Shown here one piece after another: positions 15,754 to 53,745 of a stretch of 64,000 nucleotides of DNA. Position 1 is the stretch's first letter; the number at the start of each line of letters is the position of its first letter. Position numbers and translations under genes: made by a program. Under the pieces are notes generated by a model. That model made no database searches and was not told the origin of the DNA. It saw nothing but the letters and a program-made list of their open reading frames with translations. The stretch comes from Sphagnum magellanicum (taxonomy: Eukaryota > Streptophyta > Sphagnopsida > Sphagnales > Sphagnaceae), in NCBI GenBank assembly GCA_021904315.1, contig CM038907.1, forward strand, positions 23,567,223 to 23,631,222. The letters run 5' to 3'.

Positions 15754-16305
15754 TCACTCCACATCGACGATCGCCCCAATTTTGATTAGGAAGTCAAGCC
15801 CAAACAGCACATCATGGTTGTCGGTATCCACCACCATGAAGGTCATGGCGCACTGTACTTTTCCAGCTTTGACCGACACCTCATCGATCCGTCCCATGGC
15901 CTGCGTGACTACTCCAGATGCGGTCTTGTAGGTCTTCGATCCAGAAATTAAGTGCATCATACCCAACTCTCTGACTACTGCAGCCGCCATGACAGACATG
16001 GATGCTCCAGTGTCCACAAGTCCTTCAATCAGGTAGCCGTTTATCTCTACTGACAAATGCAAGGTCTTACTTCTGTGTGTCTTGTTAATGCATATTCTCC
16101 GCAGTGTCGGAGCTGCAGACACCATCGTCATCTGATTACTGGCAACTTCCACATCCTTCTTTCTTCTAGCAACCTTCACCAGATTTTCCAGTTGCTCCAA
16201 TTCGCCTGGTATCATCATCACTGTCTCCATTGGTGTTAGTGAGATCTTCCCTTTTATGAAATGGGAAAGGATCTTTGACCTGATGGAATTCTCCCAATTC
16301 ACCAC
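15754..16305 (-). pseudogene. gypsy element 1 aspartic protease
   Basis: Residues about 85-180 form a retropepsin-like domain: LVDTGAS is the catalytic Asp-Thr-Gly triad and VLFGLDFL the second conserved strand. It would cleave the polyprotein. The frame is the -1 frame relative to gag; the gag stop at 16299-16301 overlaps the beginning of this frame, so expression would need a -1 frameshift (or an old indel disrupted a fused frame). It ends at a premature TGA (15754-15756, one transition from CGA). Confidence 0.85.
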
Positions 16306-17390
16306 GGTGTGTCCTCTGCAACATCAGTTGATGGTACAGTACCCGTTAGGGGCATTTCAACAGGAAGCCTTCGTCTGGGTACGTGAATATGTGAGAACAC
16401 ATTCTCATTCCCACACATTTCATTGAATTGTTGTAAAGTTGCTGCTTCATCATTCAACAACACTTCAAGGAAGTTTGCCGTTCCAGAATGCGATTTCGCA
16501 TCCTTAGATTTCTTCCAACACCTGTCTTCTGAATGCCCGAGACCCGAACAGAAAGAACATTTCACACCATAATTTTCTGTTCTATGAGGCATGCCACATT
16601 TGGCGCATTTTGGTCGTGGCTCATTCAACCTTGGACATGTCGTGGCTATATGGTCCCTTCCCTTATAGATCTGACACTCTTTAAGCAGGGTAGAAGAAGA
16701 TGATGGGACAAAGTTTGGCACACCTCCCTTAAAAAAATTGATCAGTGTGTTGTTTAAAACAGCAACTTGATGTTCCATCAACGTCTTTGCTACTCCCTTT
16801 TCTTGCTCCTCCTTTAGAGGCTCGAATGGAGTTTCTCCAAGCTCGCCCAACATTTGCTCGAGCTCAGTAGCTGCACCCACCAGCTCCTCGATGTCAGCAA
16901 AAGTCCTTACGACGCATAATTTTCGAATTTCAGGCCTTAGTTTGGCCAAAAACCTCCGCCTCTGTTCAGTGTCTGGTATTCTGCCTCTTTGGAACAACCT
17001 GTCCAAACGTTCAAAGTACTTTTGAACCCTCTCCTTGGGTTCTTGCTTGATGGCATCGAGCTTCACTCTGATGTCATCAGCGTCCACACTACCGTACTTC
17101 TGTACGATCAGTGTCCTTAGCTGAAGCCAATCGGCTGGCGCCGGTTGCAACCTTCTGAACCACTCTCTAGCCTTGCCCCTCAAGTTGAGCTTGGCGATCT
17201 TAAAAAATTTATCTGCATTGAGGTCTTGCACCTCAACAGCCATGCTGAGCCTTTCTGCCCAATCATTAACGTCTTCATGGTCCCTTCCCCGAAACAACTC
17301 ATCCATGCCCTGGGACTGGTCATCCTGCAATGTTGAGCTCCAAACCAAAATTGCAATGTTTCTATGCAACCTTGTGTCACAGTTCAACAA
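16299..17390 (-). CDS. gypsy element 1 gag (capsid/nucleocapsid)
   Basis: A 363-codon frame. Residues about 25-180 match the retrotransposon gag (capsid) pattern with FFKIAKLNLRGKAREWF and a C-terminal helical section. The nucleocapsid part has one intact zinc knuckle, CSFCSGLGHSEDRC (C-x2-C-x4-H-x4-C). A second knuckle begins CQIYKGRDHIATTC, in which the expected second Cys is Tyr (a TGT-to-TAT-type change). Gag packages the element RNA into virus-like particles. The start at 17390 is the first ATG of the frame. It overlaps the protease frame by a few bases at its 3' end. Confidence 0.85.
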   Translation of the reverse strand: MLNCDTRLHRNIAILVWSSTLQDDQSQGMDELFRGRDHEDVNDWAERLSMAVEVQDLNADKFFKIAKLNLRGKAREWFRRLQPAPADWLQLRTLIVQKYGSVDADDIRVKLDAIKQEPKERVQKYFERLDRLFQRGRIPDTEQRRRFLAKLRPEIRKLCVVRTFADIEELVGAATELEQMLGELGETPFEPLKEEQEKGVAKTLMEHQVAVLNNTLINFFKGGVPNFVPSSSSTLLKECQIYKGRDHIATTCPRLNEPRPKCAKCGMPHRTENYGVKCSFCSGLGHSEDRCWKKSKDAKSHSGTANFLEVLLNDEAATLQQFNEMCGNENVFSHIHVPRRRLPVEMPLTGTVPSTDVAEDTPW

Positions 17391-17590
17391 CTATAGTACC
17401 GAATAACCTCAAAATAAATTTTGTTTGTATTGAATTTTGAGAGAAGCAGACCTCATTAGATTCAACCTGCAAATTCAGACTGAGTCCCTTCTGCTACTGG
17501 ATTCAAAGGTGCAAAATTTGATGGAAAAATGGAAAAGTTCTACTCATCTGTAGATTCTTGTTGGAATAGCCACCCCTCTCCTGCATCGCT

Positions 17591-18122
17591 CTAGATTTTC
17601 CAACTTATCATACGAGACCTTGATCCACCATGTTCCACTTTAACAATCCGATCTCCGGTCTGGAACAAGTCTTCCACACCCGGGATGTAAAACCTAGGAA
17701 AATGGTTAGCTGAGGGAGTCGACTTGGGGATCCAAATGTCTCCTAGTCTAGGCACATTGCACTGCCTCTCAGCAAACAACAGCGTCACTCTACGCAAGGT
17801 AGGTGGTGTAGTAGTATTGTGTCTGTAATTGCGAGATTGACACCCACCCCCTGGCTCCATTACTCACCTTCACCCAGACCTCAGCTCGGGTGTCAAAACC
17901 ACTGTGAGCTATTTCGATTGCTATATCTCCTACTCTGGCCTCATCGGGATCTATTCCTACAATAGTTATCACACCAAAACCCAAGAAACGCAATACCACG
18001 GCTCCTCTTGGTGGCAATACACGCCGAGTAGTGTAAAAATCGAACCTACTGATGATTCGTTGCTCATGAATCTCCTGTGTTAGTTCTTCCACTTCTATAT
18101 CATTTGCACCAGACAAGGACAT
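17591..18122 (-). CDS. Two short overlapping frames between 5' LTR and gag of gypsy element 1
   Basis: Frames 17790-18122 (110 codons) and 17591-17860 (89 codons) lie in the leader between the primer site and gag. The first contains a GDIAIEIAHSGFDTRAEVWV region and a GARGWVSI motif. The second reads on in another frame with a VPRLGDIWIPKS segment, so together they may be one former ORF broken by a frameshift. I do not recognise a family. Upstream leader ORFs are known in some LTR elements, but the sequence gives no function. Confidence 0.3.
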
Positions 18123-18189
18123 GTTTCCTTTACTACCATCACACTTGGGCCCTCATAGGTTATACTGAAACCCAATAGGTCCAACCAAT

Positions 18190-18199
18190 TCTGATACCA
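18190..18199 (-). promoter_or_regulatory. Primer-binding site of gypsy element 1
   Basis: On the minus strand TGGTATCAGA matches the 3' end of plant initiator tRNA-Met (TGGTATCAGAGC) over 10 bases and diverges after that. It abuts the LTR with no spacer, and the 5' LTR lacks the GGTTACA ending seen in the 3' LTR. A small deletion at the LTR/primer-site junction is likely. Confidence 0.7.
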
Positions 18200-19102
18200 A
18201 AAAGGAGAAGGACCAAACAACAACCAGACCCCTCTGTTGTACTCACTTTGACATAGTGAACATGGGCAATCACATATCAAAGAAACAACATAGCAACATC
18301 ATTGGTCTAAATCCAAATGAGAGATTCATTACTGGAGCAAAATAATCTTGCCCGAACCTCTGCAGATACGACTCCTACACAGAACCTCAAGGACCAAAAC
18401 TCATAATTCAAATTTCACAAAGACCCTCAACAACACAAGCTTCCACTTTTCCAGTACGTTCATCAGTAGTCTAACAACAACTCAGTCAAAGATTGAGCTC
18501 CAAAAACAGACCACTCGAGCTGTCTCTCTATACACTTCCCAAACTTCACCGGTCTACAGCACCGATTCTTACTTTCGACCTGACTCTGACCAGATTCAGG
18601 AGCTAGCCATCCCCTAGTTACTAACGCAGCGGAAGAAATCAGCAACTAGCAATCTTCTAAGCTCCTCTGCATTTTCCAAAAATCTCCTACTTCCTCTCTG
18701 TTGATCTTTGCTCTTGCAAGCAAACAAATCCACTCATCGACTATACATTTTCTGAACTGACTAGCAGGATCTGCCTCTGCCAAAAAAAACTCAGGACTCC
18801 GAACTCCCCTTCAGCTCCTCCTCTAACTTCCCGGATCTCCCCTTCAACGTTTAGCCTCCTCCTCTTTGAATTGCCAGCTCCCGCCATTCAAGATAGCACC
18901 ATGCCTCATAAAATCCACGCCGCCTTCTTCATTCAGCCGAACGTATCCATCATCAACACAAAACTCCTTAATTAGTGACCGCCATGCATTCCTTGTGAGG
19001 TGATTGAGATCTTATGCGCAACCAAAATTTAGATCAGCAGTTAAAACTAAACCACCTCTTGGACAGCGTTCACACTAGTAAGCGACCTGCTGTCCGGTCA
19101 CA
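18200..19102 (-). repeat. 5' LTR of gypsy element 1
   Basis: Starts TGTGACCGG at 19102 on the minus strand. The terminal bases before the primer site differ from the 3' LTR (TTTTTGG running straight into TATCAGA), so the exact inner edge is ambiguous by about 8 bp. Flank after the LTR is ATAT. Confidence 0.88.
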
Positions 19103-19106
19103 ATAT

Positions 19107-19783
19107 GACCTTTGACTTCTTGGGCAATGAACTATCTTTCTACAACCTAACTACCCCCCTTTTTCAGAGATGTCACAACTTATAAAATTAGTTGAGCATA
19201 GGTACATAGCCTTCATGTGTGCAAGTTATCAGGAGACCATAAGCCTTTTGATAGGCTAGTGACCAAAGTTGGGTCAGTCCAAATAAAAATCCACCCGACC
19301 AATTAGGGCTGTGGGTGGGTTAGTTTTACACCATGTAATAGCCTTGGAGAGTTATCGCTTTGTTAATTTAGAGCACCTCACTCGGCAAAAATGTCTACCA
19401 TTCTTGAAGCTCCCAGGGAGTTTTCTATAAGGAGACAATGTAAGGTCTCATTGCAACAATAGCCTGAGATCTTGCTACAAGAGGAATTCCAACATAAGAA
19501 GTCGTCGCAGTCCTCGTTTGGTATGCTAGAAATAAGCACTTTAGTGTGGGCATATACTCTGGACCTTGGGTTTCACGTTGGAGTGCTTCCTACAAACTTT
19601 TGTTGAATGCATTGTTTTTAGTGACCATAATTATTGGTTTTATCCCTTGCAAACAAAGAACTAGCACCTCAACAAACCTCAAGAGGATTAGCAACTCAAA
19701 TACTTTGAGAATATAAGAAAGGAGGGGTGGTTGTTTTTTTCAAATTCTTATTTCTATGGGTCAAAAGTCAGAGTGTTTGGTCT
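19107..19783. other. Intergenic DNA, no feature recognised
   Basis: No domain, RNA gene or repeat relation recognised between the gypsy insertion and the MITE. Confidence 0.4.
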
Positions 19784-32267: not shown

Positions 32268-32800
32268 CTGTCATGCCCGTACATGGCCTCATACATGATG
32301 GCCAGTTATGAGCATGCCCATCATGCCTTTTAATGTACGTTTTTAAGGTAAATGTACGTTCATAGGTGATTGTACGTTATTAAGTACTTAGGGTTTCAAT
32401 TTGTTGGCAGGTATATAAAAGGCCAAACCTTTCCTTTTTATTTTTAGTTTTTCTAGAATTCCTTTGTCAAGAGAGTTTCCTCCATAATCAGATAGGATTT
32501 CTAAATGCTCACAACGGCCATTGCATGGCCACCATTTACATACATTCATCATGTTCTCCTATAGCACTTTGATCCCTACTCAGACCATGCCATGATTTTC
32601 CTAGCTCAGGTCTAGGGGGGGATACATGAAAATTTCATCTCAGCCTCTTCTTGTGCATTATATGTGTGTGTGTGTGTGTGCATCTCTTTTTGGTTGATTA
32701 GTTTATACCTTTGATTGGCTTTAGTCTTTTTATTTAGTAAAATTTACTATGGATTTACACCCTTATGACACCATACATCACAACACTACACATCACAACA
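32268..32800 (+). mobile_element. Remnant of the methyltransferase-gypsy family: LTR part, internal tail, LTR start
   Basis: In plus orientation: an LTR segment (32268 to about 32550) with a TATA box, TATATAAAA, at 32412-32420; then about 70 bp matching the 3' internal tail of the gypsy element at 39088-39180; then a polypurine tract TCTAGGGGGGGA (32611-32622); then the first approximately 175 bp of an LTR (TACATGAAAATTTC...). A (TG)n microsatellite lies inside the LTR start at 32661-32680. The internal region is missing, so this is a heavily deleted second copy. Compare 38408-39087. Confidence 0.6.
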
Positions 32801-38400: not shown

Positions 38401-38407
38401 CTATATT

Positions 38408-38579
38408 GTTGTGACATGTAGTATTGTGATGTGCGGTGTCGTAAGGGTCTAAATCCTAGTAAACTTTATTAAACAAAAAGACTAAAACCAGTCAAAGGTA
38501 GAAACTAATCAACCAAAAAAAGATGCACGCACAAATATATACAATGCACAAGAAGAGGCTAAGATAAAATTCTCATGTA
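38408..38579 (-). repeat. Extra copy of the LTR beginning
   Basis: On the minus strand it starts TACATGAGAATTTTATC and continues to CTACATGTCACAAC. It matches the first approximately 150 bp of the adjacent full LTR (38935-39087), giving an LTR followed by a second truncated LTR start. Confidence 0.65.
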
Positions 38580-38599
38580 TATTAAATTGAATAAAAAAA

Positions 38600-39087
38600 G
38601 AGGAAAGAAAACGTAGTGTATGTAAACAATGGTCATGTAATAGTCGTTGTGAACATCTAAAATTTTAATCTAACTATGGAGGAAACTTTCCCTCACAAAG
38701 GAATTTTAGAAGAACTAATAAGAGAAGGGAAGAGCTTGGCCTTTTATACAACTGTCAACAAAGTTGAAACCTTAAACAAGTTGTAACCCTAAAACACCTA
38801 ATAGCTTATAATAACCTAAGAACGTACATTAACCTTAATAACGTACATTAACCCCAAAGGCATGATTGGCATGCCCATAATAGCCTGTCATGTATGAGGC
38901 CATGCATATGAGCATGACAACTGTCATGACGTGTAGTGTTGTGATGTGCGGTGTGGTAAGGGTATAAATCCATAATAAACTCTACTAAACAAAAAGAATA
39001 AAACCAATCAAAGGTAGAAACTAATCAACCAAAAAGATATGCATGCACATATACCACAAAAGGAGGTTGAGATGAAATTTTCATGTA
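38600..39087 (-). repeat. 3' LTR of the methyltransferase-gypsy element
   Basis: Begins directly after the polypurine tract (minus-strand TCTGGGGAGGGGA, 39088-39100) with TACATGAAAATTTC. It contains a TATA box (TATAAAAGGCC on the minus strand, 38740-38750) and ends near CACTACGTTTTC (about 38600-38615). A related LTR end also lies at 52745-52830 and a related remnant at 32268-32800, so the family has several traces here. Confidence 0.65.
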
Positions 39088-39649
39088 TCCCCTCCCCAGA
39101 CTTGAACCGAGAAAAGCGTGGCATGGTCTGAATAAAAATCAAGGTGCTGCAAGAGAACATGATGAACACTACCAAATGCCGGTGGGAACTTGAATGAGCT
39201 CCAGCTTGAGGTAGAATAAATGGTATCCACCATTACAACTCTCTCAAAATAACATCTGATCAACAACGTCTGTTTTCTAACATACTTGACATGGATAATC
39301 AAGTGGAGGAATCAAAGTCAACATGATGATGGTAGGATCCAAGTTTGGCAGGTGGTAGGATGCATAGTTTTTGGGGTGATCTTCAATTGTGCGTTCGCTA
39401 ACTCCTTGCAACTCCAACACACTTGAAGGCTTAATTGCCTTAATCCTCAAGATAGTGTGATCGGAAGAAGTGTCTAGAGTATCATTAGGTTGCTGCTAGA
39501 GATACACAAAGTCACCAACATCAAATTGTCTCACCTTAGGTTTATAACTGCCACCTCGTGTGTGTGCATACTTTACGGTGTCTTGATGTTGTGCAATGGA
39601 CAAGTTTTCCATGGCCATGGGCATAACCCTCCTAAATAGGACAACCCTT

Positions 39650-40385
39650 TCTATGATGACCCTAGCGTAAGTGGCTGGGAGTCCAAGTCCACAACTTGGT
39701 CCATTTGAACAACAATGGAAGAGGGTGCAATGGGATGTCTCCCAAAAAGTAGAAAGTAAGGAGAAAAATGGGACAAAGAGGCGTGTTTAGACATCCTATA
39801 ACCCATGGTGATGTAAGGTAGGGCCAAGTCCCAATCCTCTTTGTTCTTAATGAGGCAAATTTTCCGAAATCCCTTCTTGCATGTCTAAACCATCTTCTCT
39901 ACAAGGCCATCAGCTTGGGGATGATCCCTTGAAGTCCGGTAATTGTGAATGAAAGCATGATCAAGCAGGTTTTGGAATTCTCCTTTGAATTTTGATCCTT
40001 GATCAGCAAGGCATTTGGCATAAGCCCCAAACTTATTTAGGACCTGTTGTAAGAGAGTTTGGCTAATGTTGTGTGATGACTTGTCCGGCAACGCAACAAG
40101 CTTGACCCACTTTGAAAAATGCTTAATCATAATCATGATGTAAACATTACCCCTGGAGGTCATCAACCACTTGATAGGCTGGTGGTCGGTATACAAAGTG
40201 AACTCGGTGCCATAAATATAAGGCCTGAAATGTATGACGGCCCATACAATAGCAAGACATTCCCCCTCGTATGAAAAGTAGTTGCTCTCAGCCTTATTAT
40301 TGCTTCGGAATGCATAGGCGATAACATATTCCTTACTTTTCTCATCAAGTTGGCCAAGAATAGCACCAATACCAAGAGCACTTTA
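39650..40385 (-). pseudogene. Element 2 RNase H / integrase core, joined by internal deletion
   Basis: The RNase H motif TDHQPIKWLM is followed within about 10 residues by IMIKHFSKWVKLVALPDKSS, which belongs to the integrase core after its first catalytic Asp. The RNase H C-terminus, the HHCC zinc finger and the first catalytic Asp are therefore gone. The second catalytic Asp remains in CLADQGSKFKGEFQ and the catalytic Glu in QADGLVEKMV. A stop at about 39885 precedes readable integrase C-terminal sequence (SHFSPYFLLFGRHPIAPSS). RNase H upstream (40163-40381) is in another frame. Confidence 0.8.
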
Positions 40386-40552: not shown

Positions 40553-41441
40553 TTAAACATAAATCCTATAGTAACTACATAATCCAATGAAGCTCCTCAA
40601 AGTGTGAACATTAGTAGGATTGGGCATTTCCAAAATGGCTACTACTTTGGCCCAATGAGCCATAATACCATTTGGCAAAATTCTATGTCCAAGGTAAACT
40701 ACTGAAGTGACAACAAACTCACACTTTTTAGGATGGATCTTCATATTGACTTCGTGGAGCCTTTTGAATAACTTCTCAAGATGAGCCAAATGTTGTAGGA
40801 GTCCCTTGCTATGCACTAGGACGTCATCTATGTAGCACTTCAGGAAATCTACCCCTTCAAAAACGTGGTCCATGACTTGCTAAAAAAAGACACATGCATT
40901 CTTTAATCCAAAAAAACATCACAAGCCATTCCCACAACTTGTTGGTTTCACGGAATGTCGTTTTTTTGCGATCCTTCACAACGAGCACAATTTGGTTAAA
41001 GCCTTGCTTCAAATCCACAATTGTGAAGATGTTTAAATCTCCAATGCTATCAAACAATTCTTCAGAAATGGGCATAGGGAACCTGTCTTGAGGTGTAACC
41101 AAGTTCAAAGGCATGTAATCCCCACACATCCTTTTCTTAGTCCATAATCCAGCTGAATCTTTTTTTGCTAGAGTTATTATAGCAGTTGCGTAATCAAAAC
41201 TCGATGGTTGAATGAGACTAGCCTCATGGAGCTTTTTGCATTTTTCATCTACTAGTTCCCATTCATGTTTGCTCAACCTATGCCTCTTTCGATAAATGGG
41301 TGTCTCATTTATAAGGTTTATAGAGAGCTGCATGGTCTTACACCTACCTAAGTCTTTCATTGAGAATGCAAACACATTCTCATACTTAATTAACAAGTCT
41401 ATGACCTTGTGTCTCTCCTTCTTGGTGAGTTGGTTCCCCAT
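40553..41441 (-). pseudogene. Element 2 reverse transcriptase
   Basis: Frame 40857-41441 carries the RT N-terminal half: RKRHRLSKHEWELVDEKC, KKRMCGDYMPLNLVTPQDRF and FTIVDLKQGFNQI (catalytic Asp of motif A). A frameshift near 40870 moves reading to 40553-40873, which has the active site CYIDDVLVHSKG and YLGHRILPNGI, LRSFIGLCSYYR. Both halves follow the gypsy RT pattern. The C-terminal half is in the same phase as the methyltransferase upstream. Confidence 0.88.
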
Positions 41442-41749
41442 AATGAAAAGGTAATTGTTTCTCTAGAAGTTGATGTACCTCCAGGTGTACAAGAAACAAC
41501 TTGAGTCAAATTACATGGTACCTCCTCCCCCCCAAACACTAATAATGAAGTGTAGAGTGTTGAAAATAAGCAAGTGTACTTAGTCGAAGTGCCATGTGGT
41601 CGCATCACTAGAATTGCAAGTTGATTGAATCAATGTTGGTGTTGTGTACAGTTGAAAGAATACACAAGTTACCAACAACCATGTGAGGGAGTTCAGGTCC
41701 ATGCTTCTTCCCAATAGAGCGTTACGCTCCAATTTAATCACCTTGGTGT
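41399..41749 (-). pseudogene. Element 2 linker between methyltransferase and RT
   Basis: An open stretch of 69 codons (41399-41608) in the same phase as the methyltransferase, running into the start of the RT frame. No domain recognised; contains LLVFGGEEVPCNLTQVV. Confidence 0.5.
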
Positions 41750-42610
41750 GACTAGTAGTGCCAATTTAGAACCCATTGCCCTTTCTCTTTCTTCTTGGTT
41801 TGGTTCAACCCAAGTGGCTGAAGCATGATGATACACCAGGCCTAGTCCATCTCCTTGAAAGGTGTGTGCTCATGGGAAGGAAACAAAGGTGGGCCAAACA
41901 CCTCTTGGTTTTCCTATTGTGTTTGTAGGAAACCAAAGAGGTTTTTCTTGCCTTGTAACTAGTTAACAAGAATTTTGATCATCAAATATGTGAAAAACTT
42001 GCAAGTTGGGGTCTCTGATGGTGTATCTCAGAGCCAATTATAAAACTGAGAATTCTGCAAGGTTAGTCCATCAGTTGCACAACCGGTGAGCATAGGAATT
42101 GCATTGTGCAACATCAAGTAGGAGTGGCTTTCAAAGGTAATGTTTGACCAAGGTGTAGTGTTCATGGACTTTCTCCCTGTGGTCAATCTAAGAAGGGGTG
42201 TTTTCAATTACATAACCAAGCGTAGGAAAAATGGATTGAACCTAGGTGATCAATTGTACCATGTCTGTGAAGAGACTAGATTTTGTGTCACTCAATCCTC
42301 CTCCAAATCCAGCCGTTGAAAATCCTTGACATTCCCAACCTGAAATGATGAAGTCCACGGGGCCAAATAATTCCATATGCTTTTTCTGAATTAGTTGTAT
42401 GTCAAAGGGCAAGAAAATGAAACTAGCCTTCAATGTGGTGGTTGTAAACTATAGTGGAAATCTAGCCGTGAGCTCCATTACTTTCAATGCTGCCACTTGC
42501 CTTGCAATAAAATCAATGTCTACGTAGAAATACCTCCGAACCACCATCCTTGACTATAGTAGGGCTTCGAGACCTATACCAATACCACCAAAGAGGTCTA
42601 GTAATGTAAT
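41750..42610 (-). pseudogene. C5-cytosine DNA methyltransferase domain embedded in gypsy element 2
   Basis: One frame, interrupted only by stops, gives the conserved C5-methyltransferase motifs in the normal order. Motif I is TLLDLFGGIGIGLEAL (about 42560-42604, SAM binding). YVDIDFIARQVAALKV follows (motif II/III region). Motif IV is GPVDFIISGWECQGFSTAG with the catalytic Cys at 42329-42331; the residue before it is Glu where most members have Pro. Motif VI is YVIENTPS (Glu-Asn at 42200-42205). Motif VIII is NSYAHRL (about 42080-42100), and a motif IX/X-like QEERERAMG lies near 41770-41797. Order I-IV-VI-VIII-X is that of DNMT1/DNMT3-like enzymes and not of permuted plant DRM proteins. In-frame stops (for example 42554-42556, 42449-42451, 42242-42244, 42188-42190) are nearly all one transition from Gln, Arg or Trp codons. 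The family transfers methyl groups to cytosine C5; this copy is dead. Confidence 0.88.
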
Positions 42611-42810
42611 CCCCTCCTTAGGCGGTGTCTAGGTGATTAGCTAATGAAATACTGGCTTAATTAGCTCGCCATGGCTTTCCATGTTTTCAAAACTAGATAG
42701 AGCATTAACCAAGGGCTCATGGGCTGCTTTGAACCTTTATAAAACTTCTAGTCCATGTTGAATGTTAGTAGGAACCACCTTTAAGCTTTTAGTAGCTTGG
42801 GCGTAAACTA

Positions 42811-43735
42811 TCACCTTTCATCTTCCTCTATCCACTCGTGGCTAGCTTGTTGGATGTAGGAAATGGTGTGTGTTTCCTTGAACATAAAATGGTGAGCCAT
42901 AGGACTATGGTTCCCATGTAAATCAAGGGGTATGTATCCCAGGTGGTGGCCATTAATCTCCCAATCCACTTGGTAGTGTGCATGCTTGAACCAATTGTCC
43001 CTGGTGGAAAACAGGGCCTCTTGCCCAATGAGCACATCGTAACTAGTGGTATTAATGACTAAACATTTGACTTGCAGGCAAAGCTTCTGTACCTTTATTG
43101 AAGTTAAGTGTAATAAAATCAAAGCTCTCCCCAAGTACCTCCTCTACGCTCCCACTAACGGTGTGAATTTGCCACATAGATTTTCGTAATTTAGAGTTAA
43201 GCATGCCCATCTTCTTGGCAAATTGAACTCTAAGAATCACTGGTTGGGCATCTGTATCAAGAAATACCACTCTGGGTGTATGTCCTCCCACCTAGATTAC
43301 TTATTCAATATTATCAACAATGGCAACTCCAATGGTGATGGAAGTTCTTTCACTAGGCACCAACTTCGAAAATGAGTGAGAGACTTTGTGGAGAGAATGG
43401 TTATCCACAACACCTTTGCTAAGTAACAAATCCACAAGTGAGGTGTTTTTAGCTCCCTTCTGATATGTGAATGTAGAATCAGAGGTAGGAGAACCCAATA
43501 GTTTAACCATGCTAAAACTGGTGACCAGATTACGAACGCCATTTATAACACGTGAACCAATCAAGTGTTTCTCCAAGGTGTTGGATGGGACCCCTGTAGC
43601 ATGTGGATTAGGGATTGGTAAAGGACCTAGTGTTAGGGTATCCTTTAGTACTGCAATTATGTCCTTGGTGCTTAACTTCAAATCTTGAAAATTAAACAAT
43701 AGTGTACTCATAAGCTTTTGCACCACTTCACACAT
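42811..43735 (-). pseudogene. Element 2 protease region
   Basis: Frames 43301-43735 and 43052-43291 share one phase, with a stop between them at about 43301. The second contains VVFLDTDAQPVIL, equivalent to the retropepsin DTGA active-site motif with Gly replaced by Asp, which should abolish activity. 42811-43134 continues in another phase with YDVLIGQEALF (the second protease strand) and DLHGNHSPMAHHFMF, then closes just before the methyltransferase frame begins. Confidence 0.75.
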
Positions 43736-43980: not shown

Positions 43981-45627
43981 CTACCTAGTGGTAGAAACTT
44001 TGGGTGCCACACTAACTTCTTGTGCCGCAAAGTAGGAAGGGCAAAAAGAAGTGGCAAATTCTGGTGTGAGAGTAGAATTGTGTGCACTAAAAAGAACATA
44101 CTCCCCAACCATGGCATCATGTGGGAGGCCATAGAACAACCTAAGAAGTCCTTCTTGTGATCTGGAACCTTGTATAAGTTGGGCATGACTAGCTGGTTGG
44201 GAAAACTTGCCTTTTAGATTAAGAAGTTGGGCCTTTAATGATTTGAGTTCATTTTGTAGAATTTGAATTTGAGTGACATGGGCTTGAAGCACCTCCCTTT
44301 TTATAGCATTGTGCTCCTTCTTCTTAGCATTCTTACTGGAATTACCTTTGGTGGGGAAAGCCTGAATGGAAGGCTGAGGTGCCTTAGCTTTTGATTTGAA
44401 GGGCAACGGAAGATGTTGGCAAATTTTGCCATGGTAATCGGAGTTGTTTCCACTCTGAGAATTTCGTAAAACAAACAACTTCCTGATGTCCCTATTTTCC
44501 CACAATAATCACAAAAGAGATCCTCGAAAGGAATGTTGCACTCACTAGCTTTGTGGGCAAGATTACCACAGTAGTTGCAAGAAGGTAGGATGGGTGTAGT
44601 CAAGTGCACTTCTTTAACCATCGAAGAATAATGTGATGATTTAATTAGCATAGTTGGTGAAGGATGAGGCCTTGAATGTGATGGAAGCCTCATAGTACTA
44701 GCCTCATAGTGTGCATGAGTTAGTTCTAGCTTTTTAGAAATGTTGTACACATCCAGCAAAGTGTATGAGTCTCCAAATTCTACAAAAACTTGTTGCAAAA
44801 CCTACACATGGAGTGTCGAAGTACCTTTTAACGAACGAAGATATCGATGGGCAACTTTCAAGTTTGTGATGCTCTGAGTATCCTCTTTAAGCTTGAGGAG
44901 ATTCCTGTAAAGCATCTTGAGGGTTTCATCCTTCTACCTAGAAAAAATGGCGAACTATAGAATTTTTTTCAGAACTCTTAACTGGAAATTCCAGCTCAAG
45001 AACTTGAAAGAATTCCCCATCTGGATCAATAAAAGCTTATGCATTGATGGTGGGAGGAATGTTTGCGGTAGTAGCAATGAGTTGTTGAAGACAAAGGTTT
45101 ACTCAAATAGGTACCAAATTTTAATTATTGGGCATAGTCCCATGATGTGCAATGGCAGCTTATAGTGTAGCTTAAGAGGCGGTGGCGATGGCTATGGCAT
45201 AAGTTGGATTAGGGATTTAAGTGACACCCAAAATCTTCGGAAAATGTTGCTTGTAGACATCCAATGCTTCATAGTGCACATAATGGGCCAATTGTTTGAA
45301 TATAAACATTTCGGTGTAATTAGCGCCATACTTGAGCTCCAATTCACAAACCACAGTTGAAAAAGTTGCCTTGAACACCCTCAAAGAAATGGTACCTGAC
45401 CTTTCACTAAACTTATCAATTCTCCCAAAGGAACTGTTAACCTCCATGGTGTATATGGGTGTAGAGGTCACGGTTTGCAATGGAGTATACGATGATGGTG
45501 TGAAAGCAGGTGCGACAGTAGGCGTACCCCATTGATTAACCCCTCCAAATGGACTTTGATGAACCATTAATGTAGTGTAACCTGAACCTAAATTCTTGGT
45601 AAGAGTTATGTTGGATGACGATGGCAT
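43981..45627 (-). pseudogene. Element 2 gag
   Basis: 45217-45627 (136 codons) starts at the first ATG and includes a capsid-like part (FGRIDKFSERSGTISLRVFKATFS). 44301-44798 carries a zinc knuckle, CNYCGNLAHKASEC (C-x2-C-x4-H-x4-C), and the start of a second, CDYCGK. The reading then shifts to 43981-44505, which has a Lys-rich stretch and a short coiled-coil segment (IQILQNELKSLKAQLLNL). At least two frameshifts break it. Confidence 0.75.
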
Positions 45628-45780
45628 TGTAAATGTTTGGTGGTACCATCATGAAGATCATGAACTCAAAGAAATCGATTCAAATGATTGTGTGTTACTT
45701 CATAGTTGATACCTTGGCTCTAGCTAAACGATAGTGCTTTCATCATTTGAGGACATGGTGTTGTCCCATGCCCCAAAATT

Positions 45781-46038: not shown

Positions 46039-46043
46039 TATTC

Positions 46044-46361
46044 TATTGAAGTATTGAAGAACAATAGGATCAGAGGAGAGATTGCGCAATTACAAGCACA
46101 TAAGACACACAAGTATGTGAACAATGCTTGGAGTGAGATATCCAACTCCCCTCCAGCCTTGCTCTTTATTCCCTTCCATGTACCACTACATTGACAAACC
46201 ATATGGGATAAATCCCTCCTTATTCTAACATGTTCGTGGTACTTACATATTTCAAATCTACCTATGTCTTTGATTACTTGCAACACTTAACTACCACATT
46301 GTTTCTAATATCTACCACACCATTTCTAATGTTTCTAACATCTACATCATAATCTTCAACA
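46044..46361 (-). repeat. 3' LTR of the copia element
   Basis: 318 bp. It contains the last 28 codons and the stop codon (46274-46276) of the gag-pol frame. An AATAAA on the minus strand (46165-46170) is a candidate poly(A) signal. Identical by eye to 51118-51435. Confidence 0.96.
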
Positions 46362-49300
46362 CTCCCACTTTGCAAGTAATCTAAGACTTTCAATCCCATG
46401 CTTCTTGTAAGGTTTTGATGTCGCTCCTTTGCCAATGCCTTTGTCAACACATCCGCCACCATATCTTGAGTTGGGCAATACTTCAGGCCTATTTCTCCAC
46501 TCTCCAACTTCTCTCGAATGAAGTGGTGTTGTATGTCAATGTGCTTTGTGCGAGAGTGGTGTGTAGGGTTCTTTGCAAGTGCAATGCATCCTTGATTGTC
46601 ACACATGATGATTGTTGCTCCATCTTGCACAAGTCCCACATCCGCCATCAACTTCCTCAACCATATGGCCTCCTTGGTGCATTGACTAGTGGCCATGTAT
46701 TCGGCCTCCGTGGTAGACAAGGCAATTGTAGGTTGCCTCTTGCAATTCCATGAGATGGCTCCCACTCCAACAAAGAACACGTACCCGGTGGTGGAACGCC
46801 GCTCATTTGCATCTCCACCCCAATCGGCATCACAATATCCCCTCAAACTAACCTCCTTGCCTCCAAGGCACAATTTCAAGTCCATAGTGCCCTTCAAGTA
46901 TCGCATGATGCGTTTCACCGCCATCCAATGGGAAGGACCAGCCCTTGACATGAATTGACTCACCATGCTCACCGGGAATACAAGATCAGGCCGTGTGCCC
47001 ACCATGGCATACATCAATGATCCCACCGCCGCCTTGTATGGAATGCCTTGCATCTCATCTTGAATGCCTTGAAACTCCTCCTCCGTGAGCTTCAAGAGCT
47101 TGGAATTCACATCAAGCGGAGTTCCAATGGGCTTGCATTCCTCCATGTTGAAGCGCTTGAGCACCTCCTCAATGTACTTGCTTTGGCTCATGGTTATGGT
47201 GTGGTTGGCACGGTCTCTCTCAAACTCCACACCAAGGCAATAGTGCAACTCTCCAAGATCACTCATCTCAAATTCATTTTCAAGCCTTGACTTCAACCAC
47301 TTCAAAATGTTCCCATTGCTTGCTAAGATGATCAAATCATCCACATAGATTATCACTATCAACAAGTACTCACCCGTTCGCTTGATGTACAACGAATGGT
47401 CCGCTTGGCTCCTAGAAAAGCCTTCGTGGGTGAAGAACATGTCAATGCGTTGGTACCATGCTCTTGGTGATTGCTTGAGCCCGTACAAGGACTTCTTCAA
47501 CTTACACACCAGGTCCTCCTTGCCATCTTGCACGAATCCTTGGGGTTGGTCCATGTAGATGTCCTCCTCCAATTCTCCATTCAAGAATGCGGTCTTCACG
47601 TCCATTTGGTGGATGTCCAAGTCCATGGCGGCTCCAATTGCAAGAATGCATCTAATGGTTGTGAACTTGGCCACCGGGGCAAATGTCTCATTGAAGTCCA
47701 CACCTTCAACTTGAGAATACCCCTTGGCCACCAACCTTGCCTTGTGCCTCACGATATGGCCTGATGCATCCCTTTTGGTGCGAAACACCCACTTGCATCC
47801 CACACTTTTGCGATCCTTTGGAAGAGGGACCAACTCCCATGTGCCATTGGCCATGAGTGAGCCATACTCCTCTTGCATGGCCGCCTCCCACTTGCTTGCA
47901 TCCTCCGAACGCATTGCATCACACAAATTCAATGGATCATCAAGACAAGCAACATTGGCACGTTCCACATCTTGTTGGGGTAGGATGTGGTTCTTCCACC
48001 ATTCTCCAAGCGGTCGTCGCTCCCTCAAGGGGTACCTACGCTCCTCCGAGGGCTGCCCATCTTCTTCATCACTTGTGCTTGCATCCTTAGATGGTGTTGG
48101 GGTTGGCGGTGCCTCTTGATTGTTTGGATACTCTTTGGCATCACTTGCGCCCTCATCATTATCCACATAGGGCGATTTGGAAGATGTGTCCATAATCACC
48201 ACATTAGGGGTCTCATTTCTCCCACTTGGACGCATTTCCAAATCATTGCCCACATTAGTGCTATCCTCCATGAACTCAACATCCCTACACTTGATGATTT
48301 TCTTGGATTGCACACACATGAGCCTATATGCCTTGGTGCCTTCACAATACCCAAGAAACAAGCATTTTGTGCCCTTTGCATCAAGCTTGCCCCTCTTCTC
48401 GTCCGGCACCATGGCATATGCAATGCATCCAAACACACGCATGTGTGAAATGCAAGGCTTTTTCCCACTCCATGCTTCCTCGGGTGTGATGGATGGCAAT
48501 GCTCTTGATGGACATCGATTCCTTGTGTAGGCCGCATTCACCACCGCTTCCGCCCAAAGTGACTTATTGAGGTTTTGAGCATGAAGCATGCTCCTGGCCA
48601 TCTCCACAAGGGTGCGGTTTGCACGTTCCGCCACTCCATTTTGTTGAGGCCTATATGGTGTGGAGGTTTGCTTCTCGATGCCGTGTGTCTTCAAGAAGCT
48701 CTGGAATCCCTTGGAAATGTACTCCCCTCCATTGTCCGACCGAAACACCTTGATCTTGTGTTCTGATTGTGTCTCCACAAGTGCCTTGAATTCCTTGAAC
48801 TTCTCGAAGCACTCCCCTTTGGACTTCAACAAGTACACCCATACCTTCCTTGAAAAGTCATCAATGTACGTCACAAAGTACTTTGCACCACCCAAGGATG
48901 TGGTCCTCATGGGGCCACATACATCCGAATGCACAATCTCCAAGGGCTTAGTGGCACGCATCCCTCCATCGCTTGGAAATGGTTTGCGATGTTGTTTTCC
49001 CTCAATGCACCCTTCACAAAGAAATGAAGATGTAGGGCAGGGCATGTTTCCAAGGTTCATACCACTCACCATGTTTTGGAGCGCATGCACACCTTTGATG
49101 TTCAAATGACCCAGGCGACGATGCCAAAGCTCCAATGCACCATCAATTGTTGAAGTTTGGGCCATGTTGGCCACATTCATGTCACACACCTTGTTGAAGG
49201 TCACTTGATACAAGTTGCCTTCACGTAGTGCTATTGTAATCACCTCTCCATCAAACGCCCTCACAATGCATTCATTCATGTTGAATTGCACTTTGCACCC

Positions 49301-50371
49301 ACTTGACAAGATTTTGCTCACGGAAAGCAAGTTGGCATGCAATTTTGGCACATGGAGCACGTCCTTGATCCTAATCCTCTTGGTTCGCCCTTTCACCATC
49401 ACTTCCACAAGGATGGACCCCATTCCAATTGCCTCAACAATGCTATCATCACCCATATGCACATTGCGTTTTGGAATTACCTCATACGTGTCAAATGCGG
49501 CTCTATGAGGGGTCATATGCTTGGTGGCTCCCGAGTCCATGATCCACTTGCATATGGCCGTGCAATTGTCTCCATCCTTTGTTGCAAAGGCATAGTCATC
49601 ATTGTCCTTGGCTTTGTTGGCACTCTCCTTCTCTTTGTTGTTGTTCTTGGCCTTGAAGCAAAATCGTGCAATGTGGCCTGGTTTGCCACAATAGTAACAT
49701 GTCTTGGTGTCTTTGCGTGTGGATGGGGTCCCTCCTCTTCCTTGCATTGACACCATCGCCGCATCCTCACCTTGCGGCTCCTTCTCCTTCCGCTTGGACA
49801 CTTCATGCATCAATCGTGCGGTCACAAATTCCATGGTGAGGTTTTGCATGGGCAAGGTCTCCAAGGCGGTGATTAGGTATTCGTAGGAGGGTGGCAAGCT
49901 CTCAAGCAAGGTCATCACAACATCTTCATCCCTCACGGGCACCTCCAAGCAAGCAAGTTGATCCGCAAGTGCCTTGACCTTGTTGATGTGCTCTAGAAGG
50001 TCCTCTCCTTCTTGCATCTTGCACGTGAAGAACTTGCGGCGAATGAAGAGGATGTTAGACAAGCTCCTCGTCTCATGGATGTTGCAAAGTGTGTTCCATG
50101 CCTCCGCTGGTCCCTTGCACCTCTTGATGTGGTGAAGTTGACTATCAACCAAGTTGATGCCAATGATGGACATGGCCTTCTTTGCGCGTCGTTGGTACTC
50201 CTTGATGACTTTGGGGTCCGCATTGGATGGTGGAGCCTCCTCAGACCCGTCAACAATCTCCCAAAGGTCCATGGAGGCCAACACCATCTCCATCTTGAAT
50301 TTCCAAAGGTTGAAGTTCTCCCCATTGAACTTGTCAATGACTCTAGTGCTCTCTCCCTCAAAGGATGCCAT
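46274..50371 (-). CDS. copia gag-pol polyprotein
   Basis: 1365 aa, no stops or frameshifts. Gag (UBN2/copia type) at about 1-220. Zinc knuckle CYYCGKPGHIARFC at 225-238. Protease active site DSGAT at 279-283. Integrase HHCC with H417, H422, C452 and C455. Integrase core D482, D546, E582 (DD35E spacing). RT with KARLVAKGYSQ (877-887), D924 in MDVKTAFLNG and the active site YVDD at 1009-1012. RNase H D1181, E1222 and D1258. All catalytic residues are present. The ATG at 50371 has A at -3 and G at +4, a good plant start context. The last 28 residues are encoded within the 3' LTR, downstream of the polypurine tract, which itself is translated. Gag and Pol form one frame, as in most plant copia elements, so their ratio must be set after transcription. 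The many antisense frames over this gene are shadows. Confidence 0.97.
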   Translation of the reverse strand: MASFEGESTRVIDKFNGENFNLWKFKMEMVLASMDLWEIVDGSEEAPPSNADPKVIKEYQRRAKKAMSIIGINLVDSQLHHIKRCKGPAEAWNTLCNIHETRSLSNILFIRRKFFTCKMQEGEDLLEHINKVKALADQLACLEVPVRDEDVVMTLLESLPPSYEYLITALETLPMQNLTMEFVTARLMHEVSKRKEKEPQGEDAAMVSMQGRGGTPSTRKDTKTCYYCGKPGHIARFCFKAKNNNKEKESANKAKDNDDYAFATKDGDNCTAICKWIMDSGATKHMTPHRAAFDTYEVIPKRNVHMGDDSIVEAIGMGSILVEVMVKGRTKRIRIKDVLHVPKLHANLLSVSKILSSGCKVQFNMNECIVRAFDGEVITIALREGNLYQVTFNKVCDMNVANMAQTSTIDGALELWHRRLGHLNIKGVHALQNMVSGMNLGNMPCPTSSFLCEGCIEGKQHRKPFPSDGGMRATKPLEIVHSDVCGPMRTTSLGGAKYFVTYIDDFSRKVWVYLLKSKGECFEKFKEFKALVETQSEHKIKVFRSDNGGEYISKGFQSFLKTHGIEKQTSTPYRPQQNGVAERANRTLVEMARSMLHAQNLNKSLWAEAVVNAAYTRNRCPSRALPSITPEEAWSGKKPCISHMRVFGCIAYAMVPDEKRGKLDAKGTKCLFLGYCEGTKAYRLMCVQSKKIIKCRDVEFMEDSTNVGNDLEMRPSGRNETPNVVIMDTSSKSPYVDNDEGASDAKEYPNNQEAPPTPTPSKDASTSDEEDGQPSEERRYPLRERRPLGEWWKNHILPQQDVERANVACLDDPLNLCDAMRSEDASKWEAAMQEEYGSLMANGTWELVPLPKDRKSVGCKWVFRTKRDASGHIVRHKARLVAKGYSQVEGVDFNETFAPVAKFTTIRCILAIGAAMDLDIHQMDVKTAFLNGELEEDIYMDQPQGFVQDGKEDLVCKLKKSLYGLKQSPRAWYQRIDMFFTHEGFSRSQADHSLYIKRTGEYLLIVIIYVDDLIILASNGNILKWLKSRLENEFEMSDLGELHYCLGVEFERDRANHTITMSQSKYIEEVLKRFNMEECKPIGTPLDVNSKLLKLTEEEFQGIQDEMQGIPYKAAVGSLMYAMVGTRPDLVFPVSMVSQFMSRAGPSHWMAVKRIMRYLKGTMDLKLCLGGKEVSLRGYCDADWGGDANERRSTTGYVFFVGVGAISWNCKRQPTIALSTTEAEYMATSQCTKEAIWLRKLMADVGLVQDGATIIMCDNQGCIALAKNPTHHSRTKHIDIQHHFIREKLESGEIGLKYCPTQDMVADVLTKALAKERHQNLTRSMGLKVLDYLQSGSVEDYDVDVRNIRNGVVDIRNNVVVKCCK
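46362..46371 (-). promoter_or_regulatory. Polypurine tract of the copia element
   Basis: AAAGTGGGAG directly abuts the 3' LTR on the minus strand. It is the plus-strand cDNA primer site and also encodes part of the polyprotein C-terminus. Confidence 0.85.
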
Positions 50372-50606
50372 GTTGCACTCAAATCCGACCTCTCTACCCG
50401 CTTATGCGCTCAAACAAATGCTAATTAGTGCCTAATGTGCACTCTTAGATGCAATTTCCTCAATGCACTATCAAATGTGCTTCAATCACTCAAATGCACA
50501 CGAATGCACCTCACAAACACACTCTGGCCCCTAGAAGACTGAATTGTGCACTAATGCACCTCGAATCACAAAATTCAGGCCTTAATGGCTCCCACTTGCA
50601 TCAATG

Positions 50607-50786
50607 CTTCCTCACACACTCGAAATACACTCAAGCAACTCAAATCAAGTGCTTCCTCACACATTCGAAATGCACTCAACCAACTCAAATCAAGTGCTTC
50701 CTCACACACTCGAAATGCACTCAACCAACTCAAATCAAGTGCTTCCTCATACACTCGAAATGCACTCAGCCAACTCAAATCAAGTG
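50607..50786. repeat. Four 45-bp tandem repeats in the copia leader
   Basis: Exact 45-bp period: units begin at 50607, 50652, 50697 and 50742 (CTTCCTCACACACTCGAAAT...CAAATCAAGTG on the plus strand), with one to three differences per unit. They lie in the approximately 730-nt untranslated leader between primer site and gag. Because 45 is a multiple of 3, frames on both strands stay open through them, producing periodic spurious ORFs. Confidence 0.92.
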
Positions 50787-51103
50787 CTCTACAAATCAAA
50801 TGTGCACAAGTACACCTCAATGATTCAAATCAAGACTTACAATGTTGGAATGTGCACACATGCACATCTAATGCTTCAAAACACCTCCAAAGAACACCAA
50901 TCAAGAACTTGTGCACCTCCAAGCTCCAAATGGCTTGCAAAACCTCAAAGCTCCTCCAAAGCTCTTCAAAAGTCCTCCAAGGCTCCAAAAGCGCCTCCAA
51001 AACCCTCCAAAAGAGCAAACTTGCACCTCCAATACACACAAATCCTCAAGATCTCTCTCAATGCATACAAGCAATCAGACCTCTAATCATGCAACTTGCA
51101 TGT

Positions 51104-51117
51104 GTGGGCCCATAACC
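51104..51117 (-). promoter_or_regulatory. Primer-binding site matching the internal (anticodon) region of initiator tRNA-Met
   Basis: Directly after the 5' LTR the minus strand reads GGTTATGGGCCCAC. This is the complement of the plant initiator tRNA-Met segment GUGGGCCCAUAACC (anticodon stem and CAU loop, near nucleotide 39), not of its 3' end. Drosophila copia is known to be primed by a 5' half-molecule of the same tRNA, so the same mechanism is inferred. Confidence 0.85.
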
Positions 51118-51435
51118 TATTGAAGTATTGAAGAACAATAGGATCAGAGGAGAGATTGCGCAATTACAAGCACATAAGACACACAAGTATGTGAACAATG
51201 CTTGGAGTGAGATATCCAACTCCCCTCCAGCCTTGCTCTTTATTCCCTTCCATGTACCACTACATTGACAAACCATATGGGATAAATCCCTCCTTATTCT
51301 AACATGTTCGTGGTACTTACATATTTCAAATCTACCTATGTCTTTGATTACTTGCAACACTTAACTACCACATTGTTTCTAATATCTACCACACCATTTC
51401 TAATGTTTCTAACATCTACATCATAATCTTCAACA
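51118..51435 (-). repeat. 5' LTR of the copia element
   Basis: 318 bp. On the minus strand it runs TGTTGAAG (51435) to CTTCAATA (51118). It holds the promoter by family rule; no unambiguous TATA box was identified. A short frame, 51348-51731, reads the same C-terminal codons as the 3' LTR and is not a separate gene. Confidence 0.96.
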
Positions 51436-51860: not shown

Positions 51861-52139
51861 AATAAATTAAAATTCTTCTTTTCACTTGCTTGCTATCTCC
51901 TCGACGTTCACCTTCGCTCCTAAAGTGGTGAAAACTGTAAACGTGGAACAGCTTACTATAGAAGAATGAAATTTGATTTGTCTCTCAAATTAGTCCCCCA
52001 AGCTCCAATTTCAATCAGCAGCATCAGCAACTGGATCCATTTTCCAACAAAAGTTATGCAACGATAATAGGAAGTGCTACCACTACTAATGATCAGTTGT
52101 ATGCAACGAGAAGGATCTAAGGCCATTTTCACAAGCTAC
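51861..52139 (+). other. Sequence upstream of the mannanase pseudogene
   Basis: No clear start codon or signal peptide could be joined to the pseudogene; possibly its decayed first exon or promoter. Confidence 0.3.
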
Positions 52140-52490
52140 AGCTTCGTGCAAACACGTGGAACATAGCTCGTGTTGAACGGGCAACCCATGTATGTGAATG
52201 GAGCAAACATCTACTGGCTCATGGTATTCGGCGCCAATCTTTACACCAAATACACAATCACGGACGTGTTGCAACAAGTTGCGGGGGTGGGACTCAACGT
52301 GGTTTGCACCTAGGCTTTCAAAGATGGCAACAACTACAACGCACTTCAAACTTCACCCGGCATCTTCAACGAGAATGTGTTCCAGGGACTAGATTTTGTA
52401 ATCTCGAAAGCCAAAAGACTAGGACTCCATCTAATTCTCAGCCTTGTGAACAACAATTCGAGCTTCGAAGGAAAGCAATGGGTTCGATAA
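52140..52490 (+). pseudogene. Mannan endo-1,4-beta-mannosidase (GH5) pseudogene fragment
   Basis: One frame of 117 codons matches the N-terminal third of plant endo-beta-mannanases. It reads [81 protein letters not shown], in the family order. These enzymes cut (galacto/gluco)mannan in walls and seed reserves. The frame is broken by TAG at 52164-52166, TAG at 52311-52313 (at the Trp of the CRTWAF signature) and TAA at 52488-52490. The conserved GH5 Arg of that signature is Cys (52305-52307). Each of the first three changes is a single transition. The region with the two catalytic Glu residues is absent. Typical family members are about 400 residues, so this is a truncated relic. Confidence 0.85.
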
Positions 52491-53745
52491 TACCAACTTG
52501 ATACCAATCTCCCCAACGAAAACTCCTTCTTTCGACAACAGCTTCTAGCAAGCATCAAATGATGGAGTCGGTCTACTAGTCATAAATTCTTCTCTGGATA
52601 TGCAATAATGAGAGCTCATGGGTAGCTTTTCAAGCCCACTAGTCTTCATGGCAACAACAACAACAACACTAGCAACAAAAGAAACCTAAAAACTCAAAGC
52701 CAAAAGAAATTTGCCACTTTCAACATTAAGCAACAAAAAGCAATTTTTCTAGAATTGAATTGCTAAAAAAGGAAAGAAAATGTAGTGTATATAAATGGTG
52801 GCCTTGCAATAGCCGCCGTGAGCATCTAAAAATCCAAGGTTGTTAAATTTTTTGGACAACTCCAATAAAAGACTATTGAGATTACTAAAGTTACATAAGA
52901 GAATGCTGAAGAGGTAAAAGAGAGTGGGGTAAAAGCATGGTAAAGTAGATAGTTGGTGATCCTTGTCACAAAAAATGACAAATAAACATAAGTAGGCTTT
53001 GATGTATTAAAAGTAGAAATGTAATTTTATTTTAAAATTAGTATAAGGATTTTCTTTTACTTTATTATAATAAAGGTCAAGAACCACATTTTTAATATGT
53101 ATCTAAACAAATTTCAAAAAAATGAACCTACCTGCATATATGTATAGGTTTTACAAAATTGGTTGCAAGTAAATCAAATATTGAATTTTTTATACTTTGA
53201 AGTTAATAGAGATTTAAAATACACTTATGTGTGTCAAATTGTACATATTATAGTCATACTATATCAAACTTTTTATGTAAAAGTTAGTTTGAACACCATA
53301 TTGACTAGTTAGTTTTAAATATACTTGTTACCTACTTTTATTATACAAAAGTTACTGAAATTTTGTATTCAACTTACCATAAATGCAATTGAGGTCAAAA
53401 TGGTCTTATGATTCTACTTACAAAGCTTTTTTATTTACTTTTTTATGCATATGTCAAAAATTGGTTTAATTATAAATTAGATTTTAGGTAGACTATTTTC
53501 TTGGTATATTTTATCATGCTTTTGCCCATTGTTGCTTCTAGTGTAGACCAAACAAAGGAAAAGGCATTGAAATTGTTGCAGCTATTAAGGAGAAGGTAGG
53601 ATCCACTTTGAAGACAAATACAGATAAGATGTATGAGATAATAAAGTTTGCGAAAAAGAAGGTTTCTTAAACTTGGGAGATTACTAAGGAAAAGATACAC
53701 TTTACATTGGAGACAACTGTACATTAAAAATAAAAAAGGTATTTT
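52491..53745. other. Intergenic DNA with a fragment of the element-2 LTR
   Basis: 52755-52832 (GGAAAGAAAATGTAGTGTAT...) matches the end of the LTR at 38600-38665 in the same orientation. The rest is AT-rich with no gene. 53470-53724 is an unsupported frame. Confidence 0.45.

Follow-up and report, generated by a model that had tools for sequence, protein, structure and literature searches.

A Ty3/gypsy retrotransposon family in Sphagnum with an embedded C5-cytosine methyltransferase, a C-terminal PHD finger and split direct repeats

The window, a 64,000-nucleotide stretch of the Sphagnum magellanicum genome (C1:23567223-23631222), contains a decayed Ty3/gypsy element on the minus strand, running from about 45.65 to 38.4 kb. 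Remnants of gag, protease (PR), DNA methyltransferase (MTase), reverse transcriptase (RT), RNase H (RH), integrase (INT) and a PHD finger follow one another, ahead of a polypurine tract and a set of split direct repeats. The recognisable features of the element, together with a solo repeat of the same family, are the following.

44900-45650, minus strand: gag remnant of the MTase-bearing gypsy element (translation; the piece matches gag in 14 of the 15 family-A loci described below, L023 being the exception)
43010-43270, minus strand: aspartic protease remnant (VVFLDTDAQPV ... YDVLIGQEAL, by eye)
41660-42670, minus strand: probable DNMT3-type C5-cytosine MTase, decayed, with motifs I, IV, VI, VIII, IX and X (PF00145, 2.2e-8, and motifs)
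42317-42340, minus strand: catalytic motif IV, GWECQGFS, with Glu instead of the canonical Pro (translation)
40553-41462, minus strand: Ty3/gypsy RT remnant (RVT_1, 4.9e-13 over 40553-40879; 0.0046, below the cut-off, over 40857-41462)
40150-40382, minus strand: RNase H remnant (PF17917, 4.1e-25)
39496-40150, minus strand: integrase core (rve) remnant, part deleted (PF00665, 7.5e-7, 29.8 bits, slightly under the 32.6 cut-off)
39157-39291, minus strand: C-terminal PHD finger remnant (CQVC...CNGGYHLF...W.CSSC by eye; open in copy L024)
39089-39100, minus strand: polypurine tract GGGGAGGGG, ahead of B1 (sequence)
38922-39088, minus strand: split direct repeat B1 (repeat comparison)
38581-38917, minus strand: split direct repeat A2 (72% over query positions 1-222)
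38407-38580, minus strand: split direct repeat B2, the 3' end of the element (repeat comparison)
52785-52838, minus strand: possible A1 remnant (5' end), uncertain, just 54 nt at 81%
32269-32800, plus strand: solo A-B repeat of the same family with an exact 4-bp target-site duplication (TSD), AAGC (repeat match and flanks)

The original prediction described this locus as a gypsy polyprotein with an embedded C5-MTase, a description that is supported by the collected copies and by Pfam searches. Every MTase motif it reported is present on the minus strand, at coordinates derived by hand from the translations: I at 42610-42557 (DLFGGIG), IV at 42340-42317 (GWECQGFS), VI at 42205-42197 (ENT), VIII at 42088-42080 (HRL) and IX at 41794-41771 (EERERAMG), the motif names being those in use for C5-MTases. 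Their canonical order (I-IV-VI-VIII-IX-X) and the PF00145 match over the window domain, with stops read as X, identify a C5-MTase, and a 68-aa piece free of stops reaches 5e-8 by itself (33.2 bits, cut-off 22). Some details required adjustment. The segment assigned to motifs IX and X does contain motif IX, but the domain continues beyond a frameshift to motif X, LERNALLGRSMDLNSL (41762-41673), and the proposed interval, 41750 to 42610, lies inside a domain whose true span is wider, approximately 42670-41660. The protease and RT had both been placed in the phase of the MTase; this holds for the N-terminal protease piece, which is in phase with motifs I-IX, whereas the RT follows the phase of motif X, and frameshifts intervene.

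The window copy is an old, decayed family member, and its MTase, with 13 stops in 360 codons, has decayed together with the rest of the element. Identity to L024, a copy with an open frame, is fairly even along the element, reaching 85.1% in gag, 88.6% in PR, 86.4% in the MTase, 89.2% in RT, 88.2% in RH-INT (1,069 of 1,743 nt covered) and 83.5% in the PHD tail. The 5' untranslated region is recognisable as far as 45821 only. With L024 as a stand-in for the ancestor, transitions amounted to 135 of 389 at CHG, 70 of 226 at CG, 256 of 2,067 at CHH and 188 of 3,150 at A/T positions; this CG- and CHG-biased decay can be explained by host MET1 and CMT, with no element enzyme needed. CpG observed/expected ratios did not separate MTase-bearing elements (L024 0.52, L009 0.26, window copy 0.30) from others (window copia 0.43, the other window gypsy 0.56, whole window 0.41).

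A search of the source genome (438,994,042 bp, 31 contigs) returned at least 124 matches to PF00145, the window included, and at least 150 matches to the window motif-IV piece, itself among them, the latter figure being a lower bound because 150 of 576 candidates were scored. Twenty PF00145 places, 9.7 kb each, were fetched; they are not a random sample, since they were picked mostly by high score or long open frame. The presence of the MTase in related copies had been set as a test beforehand, and 15 of the 20 places displayed the exact order PR-MTase (motifs I, IV and X)-RT-RH-INT (family A). Three others form a second, divergent family (B), whose motif-IV piece is 40-42% identical and which has MTase-RT-RH-INT in order, with no match to the window PR and gag pieces in any of these loci. 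The last two, without gypsy matches, were read as DRM-type host exons, with motifs IX/X ahead of I. Two more divergent groups were designated C (L045, L048 and L050), at about 58-62% to family B, and D (L049), at 39% to the same family.

L024, a natural copy, carries gag, protease, MTase, RT, RNase H, integrase and PHD finger in one stop-to-stop frame of 2,379 aa, establishing the order gag-PR-MTase-RT-RH-INT-PHD and showing that the MTase is not a separate gene. Its pieces, searched separately against Pfam, matched protease (PF13975, 1.2e-7; the same region of the window copy gave 0.13, not significant), MTase (1.2e-9), RT (4.3e-30), RNase H (8.9e-39), H2C2 (9.4e-16), rve (6.4e-12) and, at the very end, PHD (PF00628, 1.3e-11), with no convincing Pfam match for the gag piece. 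The PR-RT-RH-INT order with an rve integrase, found in the 15 family-A loci and in the Pfam results for L024, is that of Ty3/gypsy elements. RT and MTase places were also searched independently, and among the matches listed 70 of the best 150 RT places had an MTase 800-999 bp away on the same strand; downstream there were 0 such pairs, and on the opposite strand there was 1. Eleven of the 80 unpaired RT places were checked, revealing an MTase in the expected slot in 10 and none in one (L031). A real family with an embedded MTase is as good as certain. The notion of a host gene in its own right, flanked by gypsy pieces through chance, compatible as it is with the stop- and frameshift-ridden window copy taken alone, is practically excluded by the constant MTase-RT spacing in many copies, by the uninterrupted L024 frame and by the differing host DRM-type exons, in which IX/X precede I.

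On sequence similarity, the element MTase can be assigned to the DNMT3 type with high confidence. In phmmer searches of the PDB, the L024 domain matched DNMT3A best (4.6e-9), followed by 3C and 3B and, far more weakly, by HhaI (0.011) and 4onj (0.018), and no chain labelled DNMT1, CMT or DNMT2 appeared at E up to 1. The family-B domain yielded DNMT3A (4.8e-10), 4onj (1.8e-4), HhaI (3.2e-4) and DRM2 (0.089); entry 4onj, whose PDB label is just 'DNA methyltransferase', we take to be a DRM. The decayed window domain alone matched the bacterial 3g7u (0.0017) slightly ahead of DNMT3A (0.011). A DRM type was rejected, the motif order being canonical rather than rearranged and DNMT3A closer in the PDB; in the host DRM-type exons L012, L013 and L030 the order is rearranged, as judged by eye. 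A CMT or MET1 type was rejected as well, with DNMT3A as the best PDB match in families A and B.

The MTase looks constrained. Pooled pairwise Ka/Ks, limited to those of the 15 copies that are open and ungapped across the given domain, was 0.173 for the MTase (8 copies), 0.341 for RT (9), 0.213 for RH-INT (6) and 0.124 for the PHD finger (11). In a neutral simulation of single pairs on that MTase domain, the median was 0.63 and the 2.5-97.5% range was wide, at 0.31-1.48. A selected function of the MTase is quite probable. In motif IV, family A has Glu at the Pro position in all 30 loci read (24 + 6), some of them with decay changes at adjacent residues and one (L035) without the Cys. Family A thus departs from the PC(Q) form, whereas families B, C and D, and also L062, a relative on a metagenome contig, have preserved the Pro (PC).

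The Glu may harm catalysis, and the main rival explanation is accordingly a catalytically dead family-A enzyme, its activity lost through the Pro-to-Glu change, which Pol would retain for DNA binding or folding or as a component inside the capsid. The uniformity of the Glu across 30 loci, set against PC in the other families and L062, argues for this explanation. Nevertheless, open copies retain the Cys and motifs I, VI, VIII, IX and X, Ka/Ks is lower for the MTase (0.17) than for RT (0.34) or RH-INT (0.21), and the PCQ families have an identical architecture, making loss of catalysis unlikely, though worth serious consideration.

The PHD finger is open in L024 and can be seen in family B as well; the window retains it in decayed form. 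Its best PDB matches were the PHD fingers of KMT2D and KMT2C, followed by a mixture of other PHD fingers. A search of open PubMed Central for a comparable joining of PHD finger and integrase in gypsy elements listed a paper on endogenous retroviruses. The C-terminal PHD finger is new here, as is the combination of split repeats with 4-bp TSDs.

The terminal repeats of the element are arranged as A1-internal-polypurine tract-B1-GC-A2-B2, i.e., as split direct repeats. This is the layout of DIRS/PAT elements (A1-internal-B1-A2-B2), whose insertion relies on a tyrosine recombinase and is not known to produce a TSD. Among the 15 family-A loci, the 3' end is B1-A2-B2 in 7 and B1 alone in 7, L020 being set aside; A1 of L025, which has a B1-A2-B2 end, lies outside the fetched stretch. 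Family B has the same layout, with B1-A2-B2 in L009 (A2 broken by an insertion) and L011 and B1 only in L010. Family-A repeats have no match in the family-B loci; despite this, the junction CACGACA-GC-TGTCATG is identical in both families. The 16-mer of the B/A junction occurs 32 times in the source genome, compared with 0 for the reversed control. Two such junctions, C4:3308682 and C4:3309170, lie 488 bp apart on one strand, perhaps representing an extra B-A unit.

Exact 4-bp TSDs flank TGTCATG...CACGACA in 13 of the 14 copies readable at both ends (13 of family A, 1 of family B), L028 being the only exception. The tyrosine recombinase and missing TSD of DIRS/PAT elements are not found here; L024 and L062 encode an rve/H2C2 integrase. 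To judge from the rve domain and from duplications in 13 of 14 copies, insertion proceeds by DDE-integrase chemistry, here combined with the layout of DIRS/PAT elements. Two conventional flanking LTRs are not the pattern of the family-A loci, and conventional LTRs were rejected because the 515-bp repeat at 38.4-39.1 kb proved to be B1-A2-B2. Random opening of a two-repeat circle is not favoured either, because the third form it predicts, A-B-A...B, is absent from all 15 copies whose 5' edge was read, while 7 of the 15 family-A loci end in B1-A2-B2. The solo A-B repeat with its TSD in the window suggests that B1-only copies are products of B1 x B2 recombination.

A scan of public genome contigs based on the MTase alignment returned 37 stretches, two of them encoding a relative. 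One, on a Streptomyces contig (L063), is a short match only, with no match to the element pieces. The other (L062, CADCWO010000201.1), filed as a cyanobacterial metagenome-assembled genome, contains all seven parts in the order gag-PR-MTase-RT-RH-INT-PHD, spread over two frames (1,162 and 1,047 aa) that one stop separates; Pfam recovers the same domains, with the protease slightly below the cut-off. Its end reads polypurine tract-B1-GC-A2, with CACGACAGCTGTC in common, and its first 127 nt equal its last 127 nt, which may reflect an assembly cycle or a real circle. L062 looks like a eukaryotic retrotransposon and is most likely a contaminant of the cyanobacterial bin. Two scans of viral contigs returned 20 stretches, none confirmed, and 49 stretches with a single 32% match (L061).

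Families A and B and L062 have the MTase, the PHD finger and the CACGACAGCTGTC junction in common. Identities for MTase/RT/RH/INT/PHD are 42/48/59/56/41 between A and B, 45/46/63/55/46 between A and L062, and 50/64/71/65/60 between B and L062. L062 MTase and PHD identities rank as do those of RT, RH and INT, and because B and L062 are the closest pair in every domain, the MTase and PHD finger seem to have descended together with the replication genes, a reading that the identities support well. Since the same architecture occurs on a contig of an unrelated metagenome bin, the cassette looks old.

Several known systems resemble parts of this element. Chromoviruses are Ty3/gypsy elements with a chromodomain after the integrase; like them, the Sphagnum element has a histone-reader domain at the integrase C terminus, but it carries a PHD finger in the chromodomain's stead and adds an MTase and split repeats. 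The likeness to PAT/DIRS elements lies in the repeat layout, and the difference in the rve integrase and TSDs found here. Moss DNMT3 genes and plant DRMs share the DNMT3-type catalytic core; in the Sphagnum element, however, it is an uninterrupted polyprotein domain in canonical order, whereas moss DNMT3 host genes carry DUF3444 and DRM motifs are rearranged (PMC6453930, PMC5890265). Host DNMT enzymes are the subject of PMC6453930, PMC11540031 and PMC10082083. SymbioDIRS-Dnmt3 of dinoflagellates likewise carries a Dnmt3 in a retrotransposon Pol, with two enzymes methylating CG in yeast (PMC5890265), but it is a tyrosine-recombinase DIRS element, unlike the Sphagnum element with its rve (DDE) integrase and 4-bp TSDs.

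The closest known system, compared by its text description alone, is KnitGypsy-Dnmt3 of Klebsormidium nitens, an LTR gypsy element whose Pol frame includes a non-rearranged Dnmt3, with purifying selection on the DNMT and a DIRS-like repeat arrangement (PMC5890265). All four traits, i.e., gypsy affiliation, Dnmt3 in Pol, a constrained DNMT and DIRS-like repeats, recur in Sphagnum. The K. nitens DNMT produced no methylation in yeast, a result its authors call inconclusive, and K. nitens gypsy copies are fewer than in Symbiodinium (PMC5890265). The Sphagnum element differs in its land-plant host, its presence at 150 or more places and the ECQ of family A, KnitGypsy being known here by description only, as well as in its PHD finger and 4-bp TSDs, which go unmentioned in the available portion of PMC5890265. 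A 2019 paper states that land plants such as tracheophytes lack DNMT transposons of this kind (PMC6338049), and DNMT3 in streptophyte and dinoflagellate retrotransposons has been termed previously reported (PMC12344493). The main text on the S. divinum assembly (PMC9946827) contains no occurrence of gypsy, methyltransferase or retrotransposon. Among the titles and abstract openings listed from open PubMed Central, no land-plant DNMT retrotransposon was found.

Independent capture of DNMT3 by the Sphagnum and Klebsormidium elements would agree with de Mendoza et al., who place a DNMT acquisition in the K. nitens lineage (PMC5890265). It is nevertheless improbable: as described there, the K. nitens element is likewise a gypsy with Dnmt3 in Pol and DIRS-like repeats, and families A and B and L062 share MTase, PHD finger and CACGACAGCTGTC junction, with the same closest pair in every domain. 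A more ambitious reading envisages an ancient streptophyte gypsy lineage with a portable cassette, comprising a DNMT3 writer and an integrase-fused PHD reader, which would methylate its own copies and select chromatin by reading H3, having been inherited vertically or having spread between charophytes and mosses. Its split-repeat DNA would be inserted by the DDE integrase at the palindromic CACGACA-GC-TGTCATG; with insertion at this conserved B/A junction, the ends would be made by the integrase from an internal or circle-junction-like site and not from LTR ends. As a whole, this reading is doubtful.

We consider it reasonably probable that this is a Ty3/gypsy family with a regular DNMT3-type MTase between PR and RT and a PHD finger at the integrase end, the MTase methylating cDNA or target and the PHD finger steering the landing. 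The MTase would be released with the other Pol products inside the particle and would then methylate the new cDNA or the insertion site, while the PHD finger would read the state of histone tails and thereby choose where the element lands. Acting jointly, the two domains could allow the element to enter a methylated chromatin state in which persistence is possible. That methylation of element cDNA or of its target is the function for which the MTase was selected is a tentative proposal. Alternatively, the MTase could serve as a restraint: stronger silencing of freshly made copies of the element would spare the host damage and so keep the family alive, an idea also raised by de Mendoza et al. 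(PMC5890265). The family is numerous, many of the listed copies carry stops, and the window copy has an excess of CG and CHG transitions; however, host enzymes leave an identical footprint, and self-silencing is hard to keep against faster-copying variants, rendering restraint quite improbable.

With this family, a genomic parasite carries an enzyme of the sort with which its host silences parasites. If the moss is indeed the host, land plants have a large family of this kind, one that includes open copies and joins its writer to a PHD reader. Why a parasite keeps a silencing enzyme can be put to a direct test in a cultivable organism, and the ECQ and PCQ families within one genome constitute a natural contrast. 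The split-repeat layout is tied to tyrosine recombinases, a tie challenged by split repeats found together with an rve integrase and 4-bp TSDs.

Several observations were made alongside. An intact-looking Ty1/copia element (46043-51435, minus strand; one 1375-aa frame, 319-bp LTRs 100% identical), apparently very recent, lies to the 5' side of the gypsy copy. The conventional gypsy at 10991-19107, with 911-bp LTRs 96.7% identical, provides an in-window contrast to the MTase-bearing copy; by eye, no MTase lies between its protease-like and RT frames. A pseudogene fragment of a plant-type endo-beta-mannanase (52100-52450, plus strand; phmmer 1.2e-20 to 9m20) has no match in 18 element loci, and a NIF-like phosphatase fragment occupies 8349-8681 on the minus strand (PF03031, 1.2e-5). 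Rfam and tRNA scans were both empty. Elsewhere in the genome, C20:1986162-1986365 and two more places on contig C20 are MTase-bearing copies, one with a 1866-aa frame; this contig is small (4,721,453 bp), which fits a Sphagnum sex chromosome.
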